Assembly (NCBI GenBank): GCA_902537395.1 | Contig: CACBBE010000004.1 | Location: 1 to 53,708, forward strand | Direction of reading: 5' to 3' | Length of the DNA: 53,708 nucleotides | Source: an uncultured Synechococcaceae cyanobacterium | Lineage (GTDB): Bacteria; Cyanobacteriota; Cyanobacteriia; PCC-6307; Cyanobiaceae | Notes under the pieces: generated by a model | What the model was told of the DNA's origin: nothing | Database searches by the model: none | Seen by the model: only the letters and a program-made list of their open reading frames with translations | Part shown: in pieces, positions 4,828 to 39,869 of the stretch | How the letters are laid out: the number at the start of each line of letters is the position of its first letter | Numbering within the stretch: position 1 is the first letter of the stretch | Translations under genes and position numbers: made by a program

Positions 4828-5232
4828 TTAGTTCTTTGCTGCTTGAATCCTAGCCTCAGCCTTTGAAACCTCTTTCAAGGCTTTAATTTTCTCTGGATTT
4901 TTTTCATTTTCAGAAAATTTGCTAATTGTTAATTTTGCTTCTTTAAGATCTTGCTCAGCATTTTGTACATTAATTTCAGAACCAATTTCAGCATTATTTA
5001 CTAAAACTATAACTTCATCTGATTCGATTTCAGCAAAGCCTCCCATAAGAGCTATTGATTTCCACTGGGAATTCATTCTTAGCCTTAAAACGCCAATATC
5101 AATAGCAGTAACTAAAGAAATGTGTCCTGGCAGTATACCAAGTTGACCAGTAGTACTAGGAAGGATTACTTCTTCAGCTTCGCCTTGGTAAACATTTTTA
5201 TTAGGTGCTAAAACTTTTAGTGAAATTGCCAT
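4828..5232 (-). CDS. atpC: F-type ATP synthase epsilon subunit
   Basis: A 134-residue protein with the epsilon beta-sandwich N-terminus ([30 protein letters not shown]) and a C-terminal helical hairpin ending [10 protein letters not shown]. It belongs to CF1 on the thylakoid or plasma membrane, coupling and regulating rotary ATP synthesis. It lies 40 bp downstream of the beta gene on the same strand, the usual cyanobacterial beta-epsilon operon separated from the main atp cluster. Plastid nomenclature calls it atpE. Confidence 0.95.
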
Positions 5233-5272
5233 AAATTTAAAATTATCGAATGTTAAATATATATGTAGATAT

Positions 5273-6951
<1,679 letters not shown>

Positions 6952-14417: not shown

Positions 14418-14876
14418 TTATATTTTTTCTAGTAGTATTTTTGCAATATCATTTCTGACAGGTAATATAGATAACCTATTTCCTTTTTTTACGACTAATA
14501 ACTCATCCTCATTAAATAAATTCTTTAATTCAGGTAGACTTAAAATCTTATCTGATTTAAATTTATATTTTACTTTTACACAATCCCACCTCGGATTATC
14601 AGTTTTCGATTTTGGATCAAAATATTTTGAATCTTGATCAAATTGAGTAGGATCAACAATATTTAGATCTATTACCTCCATAAGTCCCACAATACCTGGG
14701 GGTTTACAATTTGAATGATAAAAAAAAACTTTATCTCCTTTTTTCATTTTCCTCATAAAATTTCGAGCCTGATAATTTCTTATTCCATCCCATAAAGTTA
14801 CACCGTCATTTTTTAAAGTATCTATGCTGTAAGCATCAGGCTCACTTTTCATTAGCCAGTAATTTATCTCAGTCAT
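14418..14876 (-). CDS. EVE-domain protein (DUF55)
   Basis: A 152-residue single EVE domain: NYWLMKSEPDAYSIDTLKND, VTLWDGIRNYQARNFMRKM, GDKVFFYHSN, then GIVGLMEVI and PRWDCVKV. EVE domains are PUA-like and bind modified bases in DNA or RNA. The first 13 codons are duplicated at 16416-16453, and the gene marks the left edge of the island. The 5' end may therefore have been rewritten by insertion; the reading frame is intact. Confidence 0.88.
   Translation of the reverse strand: MTEINYWLMKSEPDAYSIDTLKNDGVTLWDGIRNYQARNFMRKMKKGDKVFFYHSNCKPPGIVGLMEVIDLNIVDPTQFDQDSKYFDPKSKTDNPRWDCVKVKYKFKSDKILSLPELKNLFNEDELLVVKKGNRLSILPVRNDIAKILLEKI
14839..14864. repeat. Left copy of 26-bp direct repeat (att-like, in EVE 5' end)
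   Basis: The 26 bp starting GGCTCACTTTTCATTAGCC and ending AGTAATT recur identically at 16416-16441 in the same orientation. Similarity continues through the EVE start codon to 14876. The spacing between copies (1,577 bp) encloses three genes, as expected for attL/attR of a small integrated element. Confidence 0.65.
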
Positions 14877-14901
14877 ATCAATTGATTTGGAGGAATGTGT
14901 C

Positions 14902-14921
14902 TGCTAGAATTTTGCTAGAAT
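14902..14921. repeat. Inner repeat D, left copy
   Basis: TGCTAGAATTTTGCTAGAAT is itself two TGCTAGAAT units spaced 11 bp apart. An identical 20-mer lies at 16356-16375 and a partial copy at 29209-29226. It sits 38 bp inside the left att-like repeat. Confidence 0.65.
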
Positions 14922-14995: not shown

Positions 14996-15643
14996 TTACT
15001 CCTCTTTTTTTATTATTAATTTTTTCTGATCAACGTAAGGAATATATTTTGCACAATTATTCAACATATTTACATCCCCGTATCTACCTCCTGTTTCTGT
15101 CCATTTAACAATAGCTTTTTCCTCAGAATATGTTCCCTCAAGGAATCTATAACAAACGGCTTCTCTATCAGGTAGATACCACCAATGACCTATAAATATG
15201 GATATTCCGTAAACAATAATTATAAATCCACTGGCAAAAGGTCTTATTTTAAATAAGTTTCCCCCTTCACTAAATTTAAGAAATTTATCTTCTATTTTTA
15301 ATAAAGGTTTTGCAGTAAGGAATGCCAACCCAAATGAAATTAGGCTTGTTATTAGAAAAGCCAGCAAAAAAGACAGCAGTGAAACTATACCATTATCAAT
15401 TTCGCTATATCTCTTTCCATCATTAAATAGACGAATTAATTCTGGTACGGGAGCAATCCATAACCAAAAATAAAATAATGCCCAAATACCTTTAAGTAAT
15501 AGTATTAAGCCCGCTACTAAACCATTAAAAAAAGGCGGTAAGGTAAAAGTTTTCTTCTCGAGAGAAGGATTAAATAACTTCAGTAGATAAGTTATAAAAA
15601 AACTTCCAAAAACTATCAGATAAAAAATTATATAGTCCTTCAT
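14996..15643 (-). CDS. Polytopic membrane protein, unknown
   Basis: A 215-residue protein with about four or five hydrophobic segments (roughly 1-20, 38-65, 85-110 and 135-155). A C-terminal domain follows with two cysteines, the first in REAVCYRFLEG and the second in MLNNCAKYIPYVD, possibly a periplasmic disulfide. No family recognised. It overlaps the upstream gene by 4 bp (ATGA), the last of three coupled minus-strand genes inside the repeat-bounded block. Confidence 0.65.
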   Translation of the reverse strand: MKDYIIFYLIVFGSFFITYLLKLFNPSLEKKTFTLPPFFNGLVAGLILLLKGIWALFYFWLWIAPVPELIRLFNDGKRYSEIDNGIVSLLSFLLAFLITSLISFGLAFLTAKPLLKIEDKFLKFSEGGNLFKIRPFASGFIIIVYGISIFIGHWWYLPDREAVCYRFLEGTYSEEKAIVKWTETGGRYGDVNMLNNCAKYIPYVDQKKLIIKKEE

Positions 15644-15867
15644 TTACCTTTTAAACAAACATATCGCATAGATGTAGACATAGCGGATTTACCATAAATA
15701 CCACTATCTTTATAAGCTTCGCCCTGTTCTTTGCATTGCTCCATACTATTCATTTGTATTTTCTGAGAAGTTTTAGCATTAAGAAAAACAATTAGCCAAT
15801 AACTTTCTGCATTAACAGCAGTAGGTAAAGCGAGGGCTGCTAGTAGTGCAAGTAGTAAGCGTTTCAT
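15640..15867 (-). CDS. Small secreted protein with shared signal peptide
   Basis: A 75-residue preprotein. The signal peptide MKRLLLALLAALALPTAVNA is nearly identical to that of the unrelated protein at 22045. The mature part, about 55 residues starting ESYWLIVFLNAK, has two cysteines (EQCKEQG and RYVCLKGK). It overlaps the T5orf172 gene by 4 bp and the membrane-protein gene by 4 bp, so all three are translationally coupled. Function unknown. Confidence 0.7.
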   Translation of the reverse strand: MKRLLLALLAALALPTAVNAESYWLIVFLNAKTSQKIQMNSMEQCKEQGEAYKDSGIYGKSAMSTSMRYVCLKGK

Positions 15868-16247
15868 TGAATAAATTTTTCTATCCTTTTACAAAAAAAT
15901 TCTAAACTCTCATCTCTTACAAATTCTTTAAAAGTCCTTCCATTTATGTATGGAGTATACATATAAACAGGCTGAATAGAGCTATCAAATACTCCTTTAT
16001 CGTTTTTCTGCATCATCAATGATTTAAAAATATTTTGTTCTACTTCATATGGATTTTTTGTTTTCCATGTTTTTTCTACTACAAAATCCTCTTTTAAACC
16101 TGTAGCTTTTTTTAGAGCTTTTGCTCTTTTTTCTACGTCATTACTAAAACCTATTTTGAACATATTAGGAAGTTCTTTATTAGAAAGTATATAAATAGAA
16201 CCTTCCTCATAAGAACTATTCCTTTTGACAACTTCTTGCCAATCCAT
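15864..16247 (-). CDS. T5orf172 / GIY-YIG-like domain protein
   Basis: A 127-residue protein. GSIYILSNKELPNMFKIGF, NDVEKRAKALKKATGLKED and the NPYEVEQNIFKSL region match the T5orf172 (MUG113) subgroup of the GIY-YIG nuclease superfamily, common in phages and mobile elements. Here the GIY-YIG pair reads IYI then FKIG. First gene of the three-gene coupled unit; a recurrent leader/terminator element lies just upstream of its ATG. Confidence 0.7.
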   Translation of the reverse strand: MDWQEVVKRNSSYEEGSIYILSNKELPNMFKIGFSNDVEKRAKALKKATGLKEDFVVEKTWKTKNPYEVEQNIFKSLMMQKNDKGVFDSSIQPVYMYTPYINGRTFKEFVRDESLEFFCKRIEKFIQ

Positions 16248-16355: not shown

Positions 16356-16375
16356 TGCTAGAATTTTGCTAGAAT
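16356..16375. repeat. Inner repeat D, right copy
   Basis: Identical to the 20-mer at 14902-14921 and in the same orientation, lying 41 bp inside the right att-like repeat. The near-symmetrical inner position suggests arm-type recombinase sites. Confidence 0.65.
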
Positions 16376-16415: not shown

Positions 16416-16453
16416 GGCTCACTTTTCATTAGCCAGTAATTAACGTCAGTCAT
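16416..16453 (-). pseudogene. Remnant of EVE gene 5' end (right att-like repeat)
   Basis: Read on the minus strand it encodes MTDVNYWLMKSEP and then hits a stop, versus MTEINYWLMKSEP in the intact gene. The inner 26 bp (16416-16441) are identical to 14839-14864, but the start-proximal bases differ at several positions. The two copies therefore look like different alleles rather than a recent simple duplication. Confidence 0.65.
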
Positions 16454-16479
16454 TTCAATGTGTTATGAGAAAGTTACAA

Positions 16480-16693
16480 TGTGTGAACGATGTGTGAACA
16501 GAGTGCATATTTAGTCTTCTCTGCAAACGTTCAAATCATCGATTTATTTAATCTAATTTACCGTAAAAAAATATAGAAACAGATCGCTGGTTACAGATCT
16601 TTTTTTCTCTATTTATTGGAGCCAAATAAAATCCTAGTTATAGCTTGATTCTTGAACTTACTGTTCACACAGAATTGATTATCTGTTCACATA
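16480..16693. repeat. Helically phased TGTGTGAAC repeats
   Basis: TGTGTGAAC occurs at 16480-16488 and 16491-16499 (11 bp apart). Its inverse GTTCACACA lies at 16663-16671, and GTTCACATA at 16685-16693 (22 bp apart). Direct pairs facing an inverted pair, at one and two helical turns, suggest binding sites for a recombinase, replication initiator or repressor. Confidence 0.55.
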
Positions 16694-17364: not shown

Positions 17365-17590
17365 TTGTTTTAAGTTTTAATTGATTAATTATGAGTAGTT
17401 TTCCAGGGGTGGCATGGGGTCAATGGGACCGTGCTAAATCGTATATTTGACCTGATAAATTTCTGTCAAAATTTTAGAGCTGATTAATTTAATAGATAGG
17501 GGTTGGATGTGGGCTTCTATAGTTGGACCGCAGATCCCTTGAAATTTATTTACGAGCTATACGTGTTCCATTGATTCAATTTATTAAATA

Positions 17591-22044: not shown

Positions 22045-22566
22045 ATGAAACGATTACTACTCCCACTACTAGCCGCTCTTGCTTTACCTACTGCTGTTTA
22101 TTCAACAACAGTAATTGAGCCTGAACCTAGATCTCAAATTTTAAATAATCCATTTGAAAGATTAGGAAAAGAGGCTAAATTTGATTGCAAAGAATTTGGA
22201 GACGATAGTTGTTTCTCAAGATTTATTGCGATGAGCGCTTGTACTTTTGCCCAAAGCATCAATAGCGATAAGACGGTTAAAGAGTCTTTAGATATTGCAG
22301 ATGATTTGTTTTATCTACTTGCTTCAGGTCATGGATTAGACATTAATGACATTTTTGACGACAAAGATTTGGTTAAACAAGATATCAGAGTTGAAACGAT
22401 TGCACGAGTTAATCTATGCAACGAATGGGCTAAAGAAGCAATTCCAAAAATTGTTTTAGAAAGAACTGGCAAACCAGCAACGCCAGAATTTATTGAAGGT
22501 GCGACAAGGACTTTTGGTATGTGGTGGTTGAGTAGTCTTGAAGGTGTGAAAAGGAGAGGATACTAA
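22045..22566 (+). CDS. Secreted protein with shared signal peptide, 173 aa
   Basis: Signal peptide MKRLLLPLLAALALPTAVYS, about 85 percent identical to that at 15640 although the mature domains are unrelated. The mature part, about 150 residues, has FDCKEFGDDSCFSRF, SACTFAQS and NLCNEWAKE cysteines and ends with a GMWWLSSLEGVKRRGY tail. Last gene of the HNH-led plus-strand run, starting exactly at the preceding stop. Unknown function, periplasmic. Confidence 0.7.
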   Translation: MKRLLLPLLAALALPTAVYSTTVIEPEPRSQILNNPFERLGKEAKFDCKEFGDDSCFSRFIAMSACTFAQSINSDKTVKESLDIADDLFYLLASGHGLDINDIFDDKDLVKQDIRVETIARVNLCNEWAKEAIPKIVLERTGKPATPEFIEGATRTFGMWWLSSLEGVKRRGY

Positions 22567-22606
22567 GAAAGATCTTTAATTACATCATCTCTAAGTAATC
22601 GTTTCA

Positions 22607-22888
22607 TTAACGATATAGAGCAACTGTTTCATCTAAATCTGCACAAGGTTCAATAGTAATCTCCATTAATTCTCTCCAAGGTCTCCATTGACGCCAAATA
22701 GTTTCTAGAGAATCCGTATCTACCACAGAGTAACCGTTTCCATGTTGAGGTAAGAAAATCCAAGATTTAACGTCATATCCCTCTGGTCTATTTTGTGGAC
22801 CTCCTTTGTCGTACCATTCAGTTAGCATTTTCGCCCCTTTCTCTTGTGCGTTTGCATCAGAGAATTTATAAGAAATTAGAAACAACAT
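22607..22888 (-). CDS. DUF3303 family protein
   Basis: A 93-residue ferredoxin-like (dabb-type) small protein: MLFLISYKFSDANAQEKGAK, QNRPEGYDVKSWIFLPQHGN, YSVVDTDSLETIWRQW and LMEITIEPC. DUF3303 is a family of unknown function. There is no Shine-Dalgarno before the ATG, only the T-run of leader element P ending 4 bp upstream. A 14-codon remnant MKRLLRDDVIKDLS overlaps its stop (TAATG) at 22607-22563. Confidence 0.75.
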   Translation of the reverse strand: MLFLISYKFSDANAQEKGAKMLTEWYDKGGPQNRPEGYDVKSWIFLPQHGNGYSVVDTDSLETIWRQWRPWRELMEITIEPCADLDETVALYR

Positions 22889-22892
22889 AAAT

Positions 22893-22937
22893 AAAAAAAG
22901 GAGCTAATTGCTCCCTAGTGTAGATCGACTGTCAATC
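22893..22937 (-). promoter_or_regulatory. Leader/terminator element P, copy 2
   Basis: Minus strand: GATTGACAGTCGATCTACAC, perfect hairpin GGAGC-AATTA-GCTCC, then T7 directly before the DUF3303 start. It lies between the stop of the 45-residue gene (22947) and that start, so it could terminate the first and/or lead the second. Confidence 0.6.
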
Positions 22938-22946
22938 AATAACAGA

Positions 22947-23084
22947 CTACATCATCTCGTAGTTCTCGAATTTAGTTTTTAGCTTTGCTGCTTTATGTAT
23001 TAGTCCAACTGCTTCTTTTCTTCCAGTAGCTTGTTGCGCCTGATGCATTAATTCAGCATATTTTTTTACGATTTTCTTTTGCAT
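22947..23084 (-). CDS. Small basic helical protein, 45 aa
   Basis: MQKKIVKKYAELMHQAQQAT to FENYEMM. Highly basic amphipathic helix pattern, no membrane segment. Codons look constrained, and I recall near-identical short proteins in other picocyanobacteria. Leader element P follows its stop by 10 bp and could act as terminator. Unknown function, perhaps nucleic-acid binding. Confidence 0.6.
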   Translation of the reverse strand: MQKKIVKKYAELMHQAQQATGRKEAVGLIHKAAKLKTKFENYEMM

Positions 23085-23341
23085 GGTTTAGATTAAATAA
23101 AGACCGTTTTTGAATCTCAAGCTGCAAGGAACAACCTTCAAAAGATAAGGAATCAACGGTAAAACCTCAGAGTCAACAAATTGGAACGGGTTAACTCGTG
23201 TGTAATATTTATAATCAATTAGCTAAATACCTGTTGGTATCTACGATTACATTGTTTTCAAATCCTGATTTATTTCAGTTTTATCTATTGGAGAAGATTT
23301 CTTTTTAAATATTGAGTGTGTTTTAATTCTTGAATCGATCT

Positions 23342-23491
23342 CTAATAATTTATGGTTGGCTTCAGTTGTATCCCTGCAACTGCCTCATGACAACCATGTA
23401 TTAATCCTAGGACTGCTTTAGTATTTATTGATTCAAAAAATATACCTCTTTCCGTACCTAATAGTTCCTCAAACCGACCTATAAATTTCAA
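23342..23491 (-). CDS. Possible 49-aa protein or gene remnant (TTG start)
   Basis: An open frame from TTG reads MKFIGRFEELLGTERGIFFE, then SINTKAVLGLIHGCHEAVAG to PTINY. It looks protein-like. Part of it (RFEE-LGTERG-FF) is repeated in frame at 25168 on the plus strand, where it soon stops. It may be a truncated gene whose 5' end was lost. Element Q coincides with this coding stretch, so coding and regulatory readings compete. Confidence 0.4.
   Translation of the reverse strand: MKFIGRFEELLGTERGIFFESINTKAVLGLIHGCHEAVAGIQLKPTINY
23442..23476 (+). promoter_or_regulatory. Recurrent element Q, copy 1
   Basis: ATACCTCTTTCCGTACCTAA, three bases, then GTTCCTCAAACCG lies upstream of the small gene at 23534. 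It recurs inverted at 25168-25202 and again at 29091-29127, each time upstream of a small-protein gene and in the same orientation relative to it. Confidence 0.5.
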
Positions 23492-23533
23492 GGCAATAGG
23501 AGGACAATATAGGCATAGATCTAGGAGGTCTAA

Positions 23534-23716
23534 ATGAAACTATTCAATCAATTCACTATCCTTCCAAGATACCTAAAAGCATTTAATTATGCTGGGAACA
23601 GAATGGAAGAAACAACAAGAAATCTTGATAGAGATAACCATTTATTTGAAGACTATTGGAAGAGGGAATGCAGAGAACACCCAACTAATCAGCATTGTTT
23701 AGTCTATTGCGATTAG
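23534..23716 (+). CDS. Small YWxxEC family protein, 60 aa (paralogue 1)
   Basis: Starts MKLFNQFTILPRYLKAFNYA and ends with the motif YWKRECREHPTNQHCLVYCD. It shares FT-hydrophobic N-terminus and C-terminal EC-x2-(H/Y)P-x-N-x2-(H/D)C-x4 motif with 28875 and 28525. The three-cysteine tail may bind metal or form disulfides. A strong RBS (AGGAGG) precedes the ATG. Unknown function. Confidence 0.65.
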   Translation: MKLFNQFTILPRYLKAFNYAGNRMEETTRNLDRDNHLFEDYWKRECREHPTNQHCLVYCD

Positions 23717-23784
23717 CTAATCATGCCCCTCTTTCATAGGAGCAATAAGTTAGATATAAATGGTTTAAGGACTTGTCCTTTTCG

Positions 23785-23801
23785 TAAGGACTTGAACCTC
23801 A
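23785..23801 (-). tRNA. tRNA T-arm-like remnant (partial, not a full tRNA)
   Basis: On the minus strand TGAGG-TTCAAGT-CCTTA is a textbook T-stem and T-loop, followed by CGAAAAGG like a 3' acceptor strand. I cannot fold a complete tRNA around it. An inverted TAGGAGC/GCTCCTA pair (23737-23743, 23823-23829) encloses it. The truncated recombinase 130 bp away makes a tRNA-derived attachment site plausible. Confidence 0.35.
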
Positions 23802-23933
23802 CGGTTTCAAGGTTAACTCCGCGCTCCTACACACGAGTACAAAAACCTTTTTCATTAATGAAGATCTCTTCTAAGACACTTAGCTTGCTGCTTAATGTAG
23901 CTTTCGTGCTTTGTGTCTTTGTCATTTAAAGGA

Positions 23934-24185
23934 TTATTCGTCAAAGAGGCTGATAGTCTCGGGATTGCCTTTCTTCGAACCGAACTCAATATCGGTTAAT
24001 TCCTTAGTCCTCTTCCTTATGTCTATTCGTTCATAAGTCTGCATGATTGTGGCTACCGAGTTACCACATATTCGAGCTAATAAATAAGCATCAGTACCTC
24101 TCAAGATATGATTCTCGATAAATGTTGAACGCATCGAATATAAGGTATATGGACGATATAAAGAGACTTTATAAATTTTTGTCAA
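23934..24185 (-). pseudogene. Truncated tyrosine recombinase (C-terminal fragment)
   Basis: 83 residues covering only the catalytic C-terminus. LYSMRSTFIENHILRGTDAY keeps the box II arginine (RSTF), ARICGNSVATIMQTYERIDI keeps the G-(N for H)-S and the catalytic tyrosine (TYERI). Intact enzymes have about 300-400 residues; the N-terminal and core-binding domains and the first catalytic Arg are missing. The TTG start is arbitrary. It resembles integrases of Prochlorococcus integrative elements. Confidence 0.7.
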
Positions 24186-24250
24186 ATTATCAGCTACTCA
24201 CACTTGGGCTTTTTATGTAACATAATAAGTTTACATAAAGTAACAATTAA

Positions 24251-24445
24251 ATGAAAAGACTTTTCCCTTATATTGCCTTTGCATGTTTAACTGGTTTTAC
24301 GGCTACAACCGGTTTACCTGTTATTGCCGGCGGTTGTAGTAGCCACATGAACAAAAAAGCCGAAATCAAATGCGCTGAAGATGATACTGAGTGTCAAATT
24401 GAAAAAGCCGAAAAGTTTGATTTAAGAGATTCACTCAAGTCATAA
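24251..24445 (+). CDS. Small secreted/lipoprotein-like protein, 64 aa
   Basis: Signal peptide MKRLFPYIAFACLTGFTATT followed by VIAGGCSSHMNKK. The GGC could be an atypical lipobox or the start of a disulfide-rich mature peptide with KCAEDDTECQIEK. The mature part is about 35 residues and acidic. The start is followed by a 34-codon membrane peptide gene 4 bp after its stop. Function unknown. Confidence 0.65.
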   Translation: MKRLFPYIAFACLTGFTATTGLPVIAGGCSSHMNKKAEIKCAEDDTECQIEKAEKFDLRDSLKS

Positions 24446-24449
24446 ACTT

Positions 24450-24554
24450 ATGACTCAAATCAGTTTTTTTATGAACTCTGCCCCAAGAGATTTAATTGAG
24501 TTCGTATTGTTCTCTGCTATTGGCTTTACTGCTGGATTATTGGGATTAATTTAG
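24450..24554 (+). CDS. Small membrane peptide, 34 aa
   Basis: MTQISFFMNSAPRDLIEFVL, then FSAIGFTAGLLGLI: one C-terminal transmembrane helix with Gly-rich face. It begins 4 bp after the previous stop and is probably co-translated. No family recognised; the size is typical of accessory subunits of photosynthetic complexes, but that is only analogy. Confidence 0.5.
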   Translation: MTQISFFMNSAPRDLIEFVLFSAIGFTAGLLGLI

Positions 24555-24564
24555 GTATAGAAAA

Positions 24565-24657
24565 TTGGCTCATTCTTTTTTTCTCTTAACCTTTTCAAGT
24601 CTTTCTTTCTTTTATGTGATGGCTTGCTTATGGAGAGATTTAATTAATCAAAAGTAA
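24565..24657 (+). CDS. Possible membrane peptide, 30 aa (TTG start)
   Basis: From TTG the frame reads MAHSFFLLTFSSLSFFYVMA then CLWRDLINQK, one hydrophobic helix. It lies 10 bp after the preceding small gene. No ribosome-binding site is clear, so it may be chance in AT-rich DNA. Confidence 0.3.
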   Translation: MAHSFFLLTFSSLSFFYVMACLWRDLINQK

Positions 24658-24672
24658 AAATTTTTTTTTAAA

Positions 24673-24915
24673 TTACCTTTTATAGATAAATTTTTGTATG
24701 TCTTCGAATAGATTAGATTTTGATTTAAAAAATCCATTACTTTTTAAATAAGATTTTCCTTTTTCTATATTTTCAATTCTTTTTTCATAAGAATTTTCAT
24801 CGTAATTTTTTTGCATTAAAAAAATAGTCGGACTCTTATTCTGAATAATGCTGACAAAAAAGCGGTTACCTTTAATACAAAATTTAAATTCTTTTATGAA
24901 TTGCTTCTCATTCAA
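24673..24915 (-). CDS. Hypothetical protein, 80 aa
   Basis: MNEKQFIKEFKFCIKGNRFF to DIQKFIYKR. Lysine-rich soluble protein with a short beta-like N-terminal region (FCIKGNRFFVSIIQN) and a helical C-terminus. No family known to me. It is the second of two minus-strand genes, 38 bp after the 45-residue gene at 24953. Confidence 0.5.
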   Translation of the reverse strand: MNEKQFIKEFKFCIKGNRFFVSIIQNKSPTIFLMQKNYDENSYEKRIENIEKGKSYLKSNGFFKSKSNLFEDIQKFIYKR

Positions 24916-24952
24916 ACTTAAGATCTAATAAAAAAGAGTCTTTCTTAAATTT

Positions 24953-25090
24953 CTAAGAATGTTTTGATATTTTGTTCTTCATGTCCTCAATAATATTAAT
25001 TAATTTGTCTAACCATTCTGTATTATCTTCTGGTTTTAAATATGTAATTTTTGGTTGATTAATTTCAAGAGTCTCAAAATCTCCACTCAT
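24953..25090 (-). CDS. Small protein, 45 aa
   Basis: MSGDFETLEINQPKITYLKP to KISKHS. A clear ribosome-binding site AAAAGGAG lies 7 bp before the ATG, and element Q lies about 80 bp upstream. Soluble, acidic N-terminus and helical C-terminus. Unknown function. Confidence 0.6.
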   Translation of the reverse strand: MSGDFETLEINQPKITYLKPEDNTEWLDKLINIIEDMKNKISKHS

Positions 25091-25167
25091 AAATTCTCCT
25101 TTTATATTTGTATAACTACTTATTTGTTCTAATTGATTTGACTAAAACACTGCGTATCTAATGTGTG

Positions 25168-25202
25168 CGGTTTGAGGAACATTTAGGTACGGAAAGAGGT
25201 AT
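25168..25202 (-). promoter_or_regulatory. Recurrent element Q, copy 2
   Basis: On the minus strand ATACCTCTTTCCGTACCTAA, ATGTTCCTCAAACCG, then CACACAT. It matches copy 1 at 33 of 35 positions and extends to CACACAT like copy 3. It lies upstream of the 45-residue gene at 25090. Confidence 0.5.
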
Positions 25203-25317
25203 GTTTTTTTTTGTCATTTAAATCTTTGGCTGACCTAAATTAGAAATATGGTTGTCATAAGTCAGTTGCGTTGCTACAACTTAAATCAACCATAAACTTT
25301 AAATTGCATTTAATAAA

Positions 25318-25500
25318 ATGACTTACTACAGTTGCTTTGATCAAAAAGGAAACATAATTGCTCGCTGTCAGACTAAAGAAGATATAAATGTTCTTAAGAA
25401 AATGGGCAGACCAATAATGGAAATAAAAGAAATGAAAAAAGAGGAATCAGTTGTTTGTTCTCTAACTGGTAGTCCATCCGATTACAACGACGATTATTAA
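25318..25500 (+). CDS. Small protein, 60 aa
   Basis: MTYYSCFDQKGNIIARCQTK to SPSDYNDDY. A compact soluble N-terminal unit (YYSCFDQKGNIIARC) followed by a basic helix and an acidic tail. Similar orphan proteins occur in Prochlorococcus as I remember them; no function. It is followed by the pseudogene remnant at 25524. Confidence 0.6.
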   Translation: MTYYSCFDQKGNIIARCQTKEDINVLKKMGRPIMEIKEMKKEESVVCSLTGSPSDYNDDY

Positions 25501-26730: not shown

Positions 26731-27039
26731 ATGTTTCTAACCAACAAGACTCGTTTAAAAATTAAGGATATAGTAAAGAGGATTTCATTAAATGAACCTG
26801 TCGCATTGGAAGAAAGAATTTATGTAGAAAAGTTTGCAAAACATAATTCAACTATATGGACATGGCTTAAGAAAGCTAATAGCTTGAGGAGATATGGCAA
26901 GCAAAAATCAGATGGAATAAATGGACTTATCCAAAATCTTGGCCTTGATGGTTTAGAGACTGAAAATCATTTCGATCCCAAAAATGATGATCTTGCTGAT
27001 TGGTTTAGTGGATCTCCTGATTGGGTGAGGAGGAGCTAA
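26731..27039 (+). CDS. Conserved hypothetical protein, 102 aa
   Basis: MFLTNKTRLKIKDIVKRISL, then ERIYVEKFAKHNSTIWTWLK, ending DLADWFSGSPDWVRRS. Soluble, with a helical basic N-terminus and an acidic Trp-containing tail. I believe similar proteins occur in marine picocyanobacteria, without a known function. It converges on the LOG-family gene with a 31-bp gap. Confidence 0.65.
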   Translation: MFLTNKTRLKIKDIVKRISLNEPVALEERIYVEKFAKHNSTIWTWLKKANSLRRYGKQKSDGINGLIQNLGLDGLETENHFDPKNDDLADWFSGSPDWVRRS

Positions 27040-27070: not shown

Positions 27071-27934
27071 TCAAGCTGAGATTTTTGATGATTTGATAAT
27101 TTCCCATGCTTCTGATGCATTGTCTGCATATTGGAAAAGATTTAAATTTTCATCTGAAATTAATCCAAGATCAGCTAGATATTCGAAGTTAATTATCTTA
27201 TTCCAATACTCTCTACCAAAAAGTATGATTGGGATTTTAGTTTTCATTCCTGTTTGACATAGTGTCAATAGATCAAATAATTCATCTAGTGTTCCAAAAC
27301 CTCCAGGGAAAAATACAGCAGCTACTGATCGCATGACAAAATGGATCTTTCTTAATGCAAAATAATTAAACTTAAAGCAAAGACCGGGAGTTATAAAAGC
27401 ATTTGGGATTTGTTCATTAGGGAGACTGATATTTAACCCTATAGATTTACAATTTGCTTCAAATGCACCTCTATTAGCAGCTTCCATAATTCCTGGCCCC
27501 CCACCTGTCACAATCACATGAGAATTACAGTTTTTATTTTGATTACTAATTGAAGCAAGTTTAGAAAACTCCCTTGCGGATTGATAGTAATGACTCATTA
27601 GAAGCAAATTTTCTAATCTATTTAAATTTCGTTTTAAAAGTATCGATTTAGGATTTTTTTTAATCAAATCTTCTATATTTTCAAGTCTCTTTTTTATATT
27701 TGATTCTTCTGTAATGCTTGCGCCTCCAAAAATAATTATTGTTGAAAGAATTTTATTTTCTTCAAGGATTAAATCTGGTTTAGTAATTTCAAGAAGCATT
27801 CTGACTCCACGCATATCATTTCGGCTAAGTAAACCAATATCTTCGTGAGCCAATTTATAAGTATCAGAATTAATAATTAAATTCAGGTTTTTTAAATTAT
27901 TACTAGGGGATATATTTTTTTTCATTTCAAACAA
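27071..27934 (-). CDS. LOG-family protein (TIGR00730; lysine-decarboxylase-like fold)
   Basis: A 287-residue protein with both LOG signatures: VTGGGPGIMEAANRGAFEA (about 140-158) and FFPGGFGTLDELFDLLTLCQ (about 207-226), matching PGGxGTxxE. Family members cleave cytokinin or nucleotide monophosphates to free base and ribose phosphate. The N-terminal 70 residues are an extension. It overlaps the upstream cupin-like gene by 8 bp, so they are likely co-translated. Core-type genes here interrupt the island. Confidence 0.85.
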   Translation of the reverse strand: MFEMKKNISPSNNLKNLNLIINSDTYKLAHEDIGLLSRNDMRGVRMLLEITKPDLILEENKILSTIIIFGGASITEESNIKKRLENIEDLIKKNPKSILLKRNLNRLENLLLMSHYYQSAREFSKLASISNQNKNCNSHVIVTGGGPGIMEAANRGAFEANCKSIGLNISLPNEQIPNAFITPGLCFKFNYFALRKIHFVMRSVAAVFFPGGFGTLDELFDLLTLCQTGMKTKIPIILFGREYWNKIINFEYLADLGLISDENLNLFQYADNASEAWEIIKSSKISA

Positions 27935-31799: not shown

Positions 31800-31897
31800 G
31801 TAGTTAATACTACAAAATCGTCCGATCTACCATCTGATAGACCGCAGTACGACTCAAGCCATAGGACGGGGACTTGAGCAAGTTCAGGAGCTGCATC
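31800..31897 (+). ncRNA. Structured leader with pseudoknot potential (candidate riboswitch)
   Basis: Elements in order: hairpin GTAGT/ACTAC (31800-31813); CGTCC (31819-31823) pairing with GGACG (31864-31868), enclosing a small TCTA/TAGA hairpin; CTCAAG (31853-31858) inside that pair matching CTTGAG (31873-31878) outside it, i.e. an H-type pseudoknot. CTTGAGCAAG can instead fold on itself. AGGAG (31886-31890) follows, 7 bp before the ATG. The tract is conspicuously G+C-richer than its surroundings. Confidence 0.55.
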
Positions 31898-39415: not shown

Positions 39416-39869
39416 ACTTTTTGAACTTTATATTTTTTATTTAGCAATAAATAAATTTATTGACATTTTTATAAAAACTGAAAATTAATTTTTTAGAAAA
39501 ATATTTTATTTAAATAGGTTTATTTATTTGCTTTTAAAATTGAAAGAGCTTGCAGTATCCCAACGGCAAGCTCATGACGACTTAGTTAATTCAGATTATC
39601 TGATGTTAACCAGCTAAGCACTTCCTAAATGCTATTAATATCTTACTAAGTAAAATTACTTACTGTGAGTATAAATGCTTATTTATAATGAATTATTTGA
39701 AAATTTAATGAATATGAAGTGTTCTAATGAAAAATTTTGTGCACTTTAAAATTTTTTAAACAAATATGTCACATATTGACCCTTAGATAAGCAGAGGCGG
39801 AGCATGGGAGGCTTTGGTTTACATAAGTTAATATTTGTGTTACTTTAGTTTACAATTATCAACTTTTTA
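39416..39869. other. Intergenic upstream of Hli gene, with one strong hairpin
   Basis: No gene accepted. A perfect 8-bp stem GAGCTTGC/GCAAGCTC (39546-39553, 39566-39573) lies in an otherwise AT-rich stretch and could belong to a small RNA; a 25-codon TTG frame overlaps it. The Hli promoter should lie within the last 80 bp. Confidence 0.4.

Follow-up and report, generated by a model that had tools for sequence, protein, structure and literature searches.

The island at about 14.9 to 26.7 kb of this cyanobacterial contig very probably owes at least part of its growth to elements that integrated site-specifically at the 5' end of a gene encoding an EVE-domain protein, and the truncated recombinase gene within it would be the relic of such an integrase. 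We consider that this remnant most likely belonged to an integrase that targets the EVE 5' end, in the manner of the dusA islands, and not to one that targets a tRNA gene. The window analyzed here is the whole stretch of 53,708 nucleotides, which is contig C4 of an incomplete genome (1,067,473 bases, 61% complete). The coordinates of its features are collected in Table 1.

RESULTS

The window retains the end of a recombinase found at full length in related strains

The initial annotation described an 83-residue recombinase C terminus next to a tRNA-like hairpin. Indeed, the open reading frame (ORF) has 83 codons, starts with TTG, and holds the motifs MRSTF and QTYERI. Its homology to the full-length recombinase begins at about residue 5 to 10 (residues 10 to 83 in the comparison with the relatives), and the homologous part, from about position 24157 to 24173 downwards, amounts to some 74 to 78 of about 528 residues. 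The search for the full recombinase that had been proposed alongside was successful: the gene that is a remnant in the window is complete in the same hotspot of related strains. With the 83 residues as the query, matches were obtained in 48 of the 200 genus genomes searched. Long frames with 92 to 99% identity over the remnant occur in G046, G121, G063, G205, and G119, with G126 split into two frames, and many other genomes retain just the last 23 codons or so, mostly with stops. The five intact proteins can be aligned over about 528 residues, for a full length of about 529 amino acids. The EVE gene is reached in four of the six loci with a full recombinase (L090, L091, L094, and L095); L092 extends instead to the gene on the opposite side (window position 26731), and the sixth, L089, is a 4-kb contig. 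The recombinase points towards the EVE side in L090, L091, L092, L094, and L095.

Tyrosine recombinases share the catalytic pattern R ... R ... Y. The C-terminal arginine (MRSTF) and the tyrosine (QTYERI), assigned by eye, are invariant in the five aligned sequences, and at what we take to be the position of the first catalytic arginine (GMR) all five read GMS (GMSPEE), with a serine. Three of the four recombinases tested match PF00589 at E values of 0.001 to 0.003, below the family cutoff; of the two compared with phage protein families, L090 matches the phrog_216 integrase (E, 2.8e-4) and L095 no integrase family. The PDB sequences yielded nothing relevant (one match, E 0.69, taken as chance), and the AlphaFold model is poor (pLDDT, 47.5), with a fold too poor for a structure search. 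Weak as the family scores are, we regard the remnant as a truncated tyrosine-recombinase-like gene.

Table 1. Features of the window, with coordinates, strand, and the basis of each assignment
Feature	Position	Strand	Basis or remark
EVE-domain gene, putative chromosomal target; first codons form the attachment site	14418..14876	-	PF01878, E 3.7e-53; N-terminal codons vary between relatives, always in frame
Attachment repeat, EVE-proximal (TACTGGCTAATGAAAAGTGAGCC, core TGGCTAATGAA)	14839..14861	-	Identical to 16416-16438
Arm-type tandem repeat at EVE end of cassette (TTCTAGCA x2, 11-bp period)	14902..14920	-	Absent from 100 shuffles
Cassette gene (215 aa); membrane-like on visual inspection	14996..15643	-	ORF; without Pfam match at E<=0.01
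Cassette gene (75 aa); start resembles a signal peptide on visual inspection	15640..15867	-	ORF; nothing beyond a weak match to LPAM_1 (E 0.45)
Cassette gene with T5orf172/MUG113 domain (127 aa)	15864..16247	-	PF10544, E 1.7e-9
Arm-type tandem repeat TTCTAGCA x2, other end of cassette	16356..16374	-	Same word as at 14902
Attachment repeat, distal copy; core-to-core 1,577 bp	16416..16438	-	23-bp identity; empty site in L097
Arm-type tandem repeat, other class (TTCACACA x2), left of distal attachment copy	16477..16499	-	Sequence
Conserved block of ~175 bp, after recombinase stop codon	23755..23930	-	Block matches in genus genomes
T-arm-like hairpin, inside conserved block	23785..23801	-	Sequence read; stem private to window copy
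ORF with C-terminal remnant of putative EVE-targeting recombinase	23934..24185	-	ORF list and homology to full relatives
Rfam matches: Glutamine-II riboswitch, cyanobacterial RNA Yfr20	31816-31878, 39547-39634	+, -	

The start of the EVE gene is repeated beside the recombinase and within the islands

A copy of the EVE gene start lies upstream of each of the six full recombinase genes. The core GG(C/T)TAATGAA stands 72 to 108 bp upstream of the recombinase frame in all six genus loci (five intact, one split), where the 77 bp given for G063 refers to an open frame whose start precedes the aligned recombinase start by about 30 bp. The repeat, with core TGGCTAATGAA, recurs on one strand within the islands and in the EVE gene itself. 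When up to six mismatches were allowed, at least one copy was present in 33 of the 42 sources scanned and none in the other nine (L054, L191, L214, L219, and L228 to L232); in each source all copies lie on the same strand, and EVE comes last wherever it is reached. The two copies in the window are identical over 23 bp, which was found in none of 100 shuffles.

The sequences around the core appear to be exchanged between elements. Among 137 distinct core contexts from 88 sources, seven main left-flank clusters are freely combined with several right-flank clusters, and the EVE-type right flank is combined with eight left clusters. The left flanks bear the start codon, and the EVE N termini read MTEINYWLMK, MTEEKFWLMK, MPQQEPSYWLMK, MTEPNYWLMK, and others; there are 23 distinct ones, each with an in-frame ATG before SEPDAYSI. 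This free combination of flanks and the in-frame EVE starts would be expected if each element supplied the target with its own 5' end.

A cassette between two repeats is absent from an empty site

In the window, two copies of the repeat bound a 1,577-bp cassette of three genes (14996 to 16247), with no recombinase among them. An empty counterpart is found in L097 (genome G175), where the match to window positions 17476 to 16416 (82%) runs straight into the EVE gene, matching window positions 14880 to 14600 (97%), and the two alignments overlap by just 42 bp around the core. Since the neighbors are joined there without the cassette, the window carries a 1,577-bp insertion between two cores. Together with the variants of the EVE start, this empty site places the insertion within the 5' end of a protein-coding gene, whose end is replaced in frame. 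The remnant had been proposed as the source of the recombinase missing for this cassette at 14.8 kb. The family to which it belongs fits that role, as its full relatives adjoin the repeat that bounds the cassette, but this copy itself would be no more than a candidate for the cassette's mover. The remnant has no attachment site of its own left, and its tie to the local cassette would be one of family membership.

On each side, the core is flanked by a 9-bp word that occurs twice, with an 11-bp spacing. The pair of TTCTAGCA words occurs at both ends of the cassette and nowhere else in the window at up to one mismatch; in L097, which has the empty site, arms similar to the pair of TTCACACA words immediately precede EVE. 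We surveyed 66 intervals between successive cores from 35 sources, allowing periods of 10 and 12 with a handicap of 0.3 points. A clear right-hand pair was found in 53 intervals and a clear left-hand pair in 45, all with a period of 11, and the words vary among elements (CATACCAGC, TATCCAAAC, TACTCAAAC, GTCCACACC, ATTCTAGCA, TATTCACAC, CATTCGAAC, and ATTCACGAT). The same word is present at both ends of 22 of the 34 scorable intervals (32 were not scorable), whereas 2,000 shuffles averaged 10.5 and reached 20 at most, none of them being as high. This figure is no strict probability, since the genomes that supplied the intervals are related and the loci were chosen mainly by the block or the recombinase, so that the intervals are not independent. 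All four scorable intervals with a full-length recombinase match (L090, L091, L094, and L095, with L094 split). The arms are unmatched in the other 12, for which missed decayed sites or deletions may account.

We also considered that the EVE-start repeats are ordinary duplications, shuffled between islands by homologous recombination without a site-specific enzyme. The island flanks are common to strains, and repeats and flanks together would be long enough for some homologous exchange; the 12 intervals without matching arms fit such a process as well. However, the point of exchange is limited to the 11-bp core, matched arms with an 11-bp period are commoner at the interval ends than in any of the shuffles, the empty site is clean, and the recombinase gene lies at a nearly fixed distance from the repeat. 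Homologous shuffling thus appears unlikely as the explanation, and we favor site-specific integration at the EVE 5' end.

The T-arm-like hairpin is almost certainly not the trace of a tRNA gene

The hairpin TGAGG-TTCAAGT-CCTTA is present as described, on the minus strand at 23785 to 23801, and lies 133 bp from the recombinase ORF (130 bp in the initial annotation). With the adjoining remnant, it had been read as the scar of a tycheposon-like element integrated at the 3' end of a tRNA gene. Its GGTTCAAGTCC stretch is identical to the T-loop stretch of several tRNAs and a recombinase remnant does lie beside it, yet ARAGORN found no tRNA in the window, and neither a bordering tRNA gene nor a displaced tRNA 3' fragment, as expected of a tycheposon, came to light. 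We compared the region with 60 tRNAs (42 distinct) read by ARAGORN in 51 loci, namely, 21 tRNA-family places of the strain's own genome and, in G015, a complete relative, 30 out of 37. The best match covers 17 nucleotides of tRNA-Thr at the generic GGTTCAAGTCC loop and contains two mismatches; its score of 13 was equalled by 15 of 200 base-shuffled controls. As far as a 61%-complete genome allows, none of the strain's tRNAs shares the 3' half. A search of the same genome with the 124-bp stretch around the hairpin returned the self-match only, and Rfam, applied to positions 22500 to 25500 at E values up to 5, returned three chance matches to snoRNAs and nothing else. At Rfam's own thresholds, just two families are found in the window (Table 1), unrelated to the hairpin.

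The hairpin is embedded in a conserved block of about 175 bp, and its conservation can be followed there. The loop form YTCAANT is present in 68 of 79 distinct block copies, that of the window included, and reads TTCAA in 17 of those 68; five pairable stem positions are found in the window copy alone among the 68. In an alignment of 31 rows, 30 of which have letters here, the outer two stem pairs are unpaired in 28 and 26 rows, and among the weak block matches listed for 266 genus genomes, none covers the T-arm positions. Since the stem can pair only in the window copy and the outer pairs fail elsewhere, the T-arm is, on sequence grounds, a private coincidence, a chance likeness inside a conserved block that has only the generic loop in common with the available tRNAs. 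Furthermore, a tRNA gene occurs in 3 of 43 relative loci, each time tRNA-Met, and in none of 11 further loci, and what is repeated next to the full recombinase genes is the start of EVE. A tRNA scar is therefore extremely improbable: for the tRNAs available from this incomplete genome and its relative, we regard that reading as refuted, and we retain an integrase directed at the EVE 5' end.

A conserved block follows the recombinase gene

By our own count, the block is present in 96 of the 266 genus genomes (E<=1.8e-7). It begins about five bases past the recombinase stop codon, and a recombinase end, intact or decayed, precedes 48 of the 79 distinct copies. The remaining 31 comprise 20 that share this edge (positions 1 to 4) but follow quite different sequences and 11 that are recognizable only from a later position. 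In L225, L180, and L217, the edge follows a dienelactone-hydrolase-like gene (decayed in L217) at about 27 to 32 bp, a site without recombinase that is possibly the block's original place. The block also follows a methyltransferase-like gene (both genes were named from sequence), at 16 to 58 bp in three loci, with the edge extrapolated, and at about 340 to 370 bp elsewhere. Searching 26 sources for the junction of recombinase and block returned the known copies and a few weak look-alikes. Second copies on the same strand are found in G054, G215, and G057 (L178, 16719 to 16882; L179, 14027 to 14136; L180, 1464 to 1605); no recombinase end precedes them, and the usual edge is present in the L180 copy only. 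The two copies of G054 enclose relatives of the window genes at 27071 and 27927 and therefore do not bound one small element, and we did not adopt the block as attL and attR of one island. Nor did we adopt it as a protein gene, with stops or frameshifts in most of 31 aligned copies and a second codon position that is not the most constrained.

The block might instead be a structured RNA gene or a 3' element, carried or targeted by the elements and independent of the recombinase, a serious possibility that we hold slightly short of probable. Three hairpins, the T-arm not being one of them, have moderate support, with 88.8% of cells paired, compared to 38 to 53% in slid controls, and the covariation score of 0.108 (0.077 when shuffled) was attained in none of 500 shuffles. 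The block core (positions 70 to 150) varies less than the adjacent recombinase end, with mean pairwise differences of 0.046 versus 0.113 in 20 decayed copies and 0.069 versus 0.120 in 7 recombinase-bearing copies; its occurrence behind other genes also agrees with such an independence. However, the count of pairs changed on both sides was reached by 111 of the 500 shuffles, relatedness alone can beat shuffles of this kind, RNAalifold reports little covariation, and Rfam has no match for the block in the window or in five relatives. A decayed gene is another possible origin, as L090 has an intact ORF of 58 amino acids and the first half of the block has an uneven codon-position pattern; this ORF matches no Pfam or NCBIfam family, and its only PHROG match is weak (E, 0.23).

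Two other features were noted around the remnant. An inverted repeat of about 128 bp (77% identical) flanks it at 23349 to 23476 (plus strand) and 25168 to 25296 (minus strand), and many relatives contain matches to it. A TTGATTGACAGTCGATCTA-like motif beside a terminator-like hairpin and a T-run is found at about 22918 to 22945 of the window and in the right flank of the block in several relatives.

Occurrence of the repeat and the recombinase in other genomes

The TWYTGGCTAATGAA pattern is present in 246 of the 266 genus genomes by our own counts, with as many as nine copies in series on one strand within 18 kb (G057), compared to ten matches in all for the reversed control pattern; at least for the places listed, part of the 246 is owed to a second site of recurrence, which in many genomes lies far from the array. 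Among the matches listed, several genomes have pairs of TTTTGGCTAATGAA exactly 1,184 bp apart and far from the EVE array (for instance, G004:C1:847135 and 848319, and G215:C1:1482074 and 1483258).

Recombinase relatives were sought in Cyanobiaceae, in GTDB contigs by exact pattern, in viral contigs, and in phages. Of 400 Cyanobiaceae genomes, 59 match the recombinase profile, in 17 of 59 genera. The exact-pattern scan of GTDB contigs yielded nine named loci that encode recombinase relatives, all in Prochlorococcus genomes. A second set comprised 18 loci fetched from the profile matches, 17 of them assessable (the L246 contig does not include the start). Read by eye, the EVE-start repeat lies upstream of the recombinase in 12 of the 17, in diverged form in L237 and L247; these 12 loci all have at least 47% recombinase identity and the five without the repeat at most 44%. 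EVE itself lies inside three of the 18 stretches (L236, L244, and L249), the remaining ones being possibly too short. In L230 (G069:C1), a direct repeat (CAAGCACTTGGTTAAGTAGTTGCCTGAT...) flanks a more distant recombinase, upstream of and after the ORF at 5122 to 6600, which suggests another target for a sister recombinase family. The viral contigs gave one pattern match, which was not confirmed. No phage relatives were found by tblastn; by blastn of the region, 44 Pseudomonas phage records gave one short 81% match each, taken as chance.

DISCUSSION

The repeats, the arms, the in-frame EVE starts, the empty site, and the repeat beside the recombinase genes can be read directly in the sequences, and we propose the following mechanism from them. 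The island would have been built, at least partly, by integration at the 5' end of the EVE-domain gene. The attachment site of each element would consist of the core TGGCTAATGAA between two pairs of 11-bp-spaced arms of the element's own class, and the tyrosine recombinase (about 529 amino acids), encoded directly beside the site, would exchange strands at the core. The element would enter upstream of EVE, where its promoter-side sequence, start codon, and first codons would be fused in frame to EVE; thanks to this incoming 5' end, the EVE gene would survive. Elements would accumulate in series, some with a recombinase and some without. Those without one, such as the cassette at 14.85 to 16.44 kb, would presumably be mobilized in trans. 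Circular intermediates are presumed as well, and both excision and catalysis would be the work of this recombinase family. The fragment in the window would then be what is left of a recombinase gene after loss of the N-terminal 85% or so and of its attachment site.

A more ambitious version of the proposal would make the EVE start the seat of an integron-like system, in which a single core serves many element classes, the arms act as address codes for different recombinases, recombinase-less cassettes are traded in trans, and every event gives EVE a new promoter region and N terminus. We put this forward tentatively and are inclined to doubt it in this full form. EVE domains bind modified bases, and the new N terminus or promoter region could possibly tune the EVE protein.

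In the published description, the dusA islands carry a tyrosine integrase that inserts in the 5' end of dusA and replaces that end, and they are flanked by 21-bp direct repeats (PMC4482086). The EVE system would be like them in its target, the 5' end of a conserved protein gene, in the supply of a new 5' end, and in its short direct repeats. It differs in that the target is EVE (PF01878) and the core TGGCTAATGAA, and the likeness is one of mechanism. Unlike what is described for dusA islands, the EVE system has several small elements in series, class-specific arms, and at least one cassette without a recombinase. Among the published descriptions compared, the dusA islands are the nearest in mechanism.

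Tycheposons are described as bordered by a tRNA gene and as measuring 4 to 200 kb (PMC10872708). Like those of Prochlorococcus, the elements proposed here would build islands, combine a tyrosine recombinase with cargo, and belong to the same organisms. The recombinase expected at one end is present, as a remnant in the window and in full in relatives, with weak family scores. They differ from this description in having no tRNA; their att-to-att intervals of 317 to 12,017 bp (median, 3,049) overlap the size range in part.

Integrons collect small gene cassettes in one orientation by means of a tyrosine recombinase and attC hairpins. The EVE system resembles them in its series of small cassettes of the same orientation, presumably moved by a tyrosine recombinase. 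Unlike attC hairpins, the EVE sites look like a core with tandem arms, derived from a coding gene. Moreover, in the EVE system the recombinase lies beside one of the repeats inside the series. We found no EVE-gene integration site in the literature searched, which took in few subscription papers and from which we claim no absence from print.

The mechanism proposed here would provide a concrete route for the gain and loss of small gene sets in a hypervariable island of very abundant marine phototrophs, without a tRNA target. It predicts exact junctions, and it would tie the growth of the island to the repeated re-fronting of one conserved gene.
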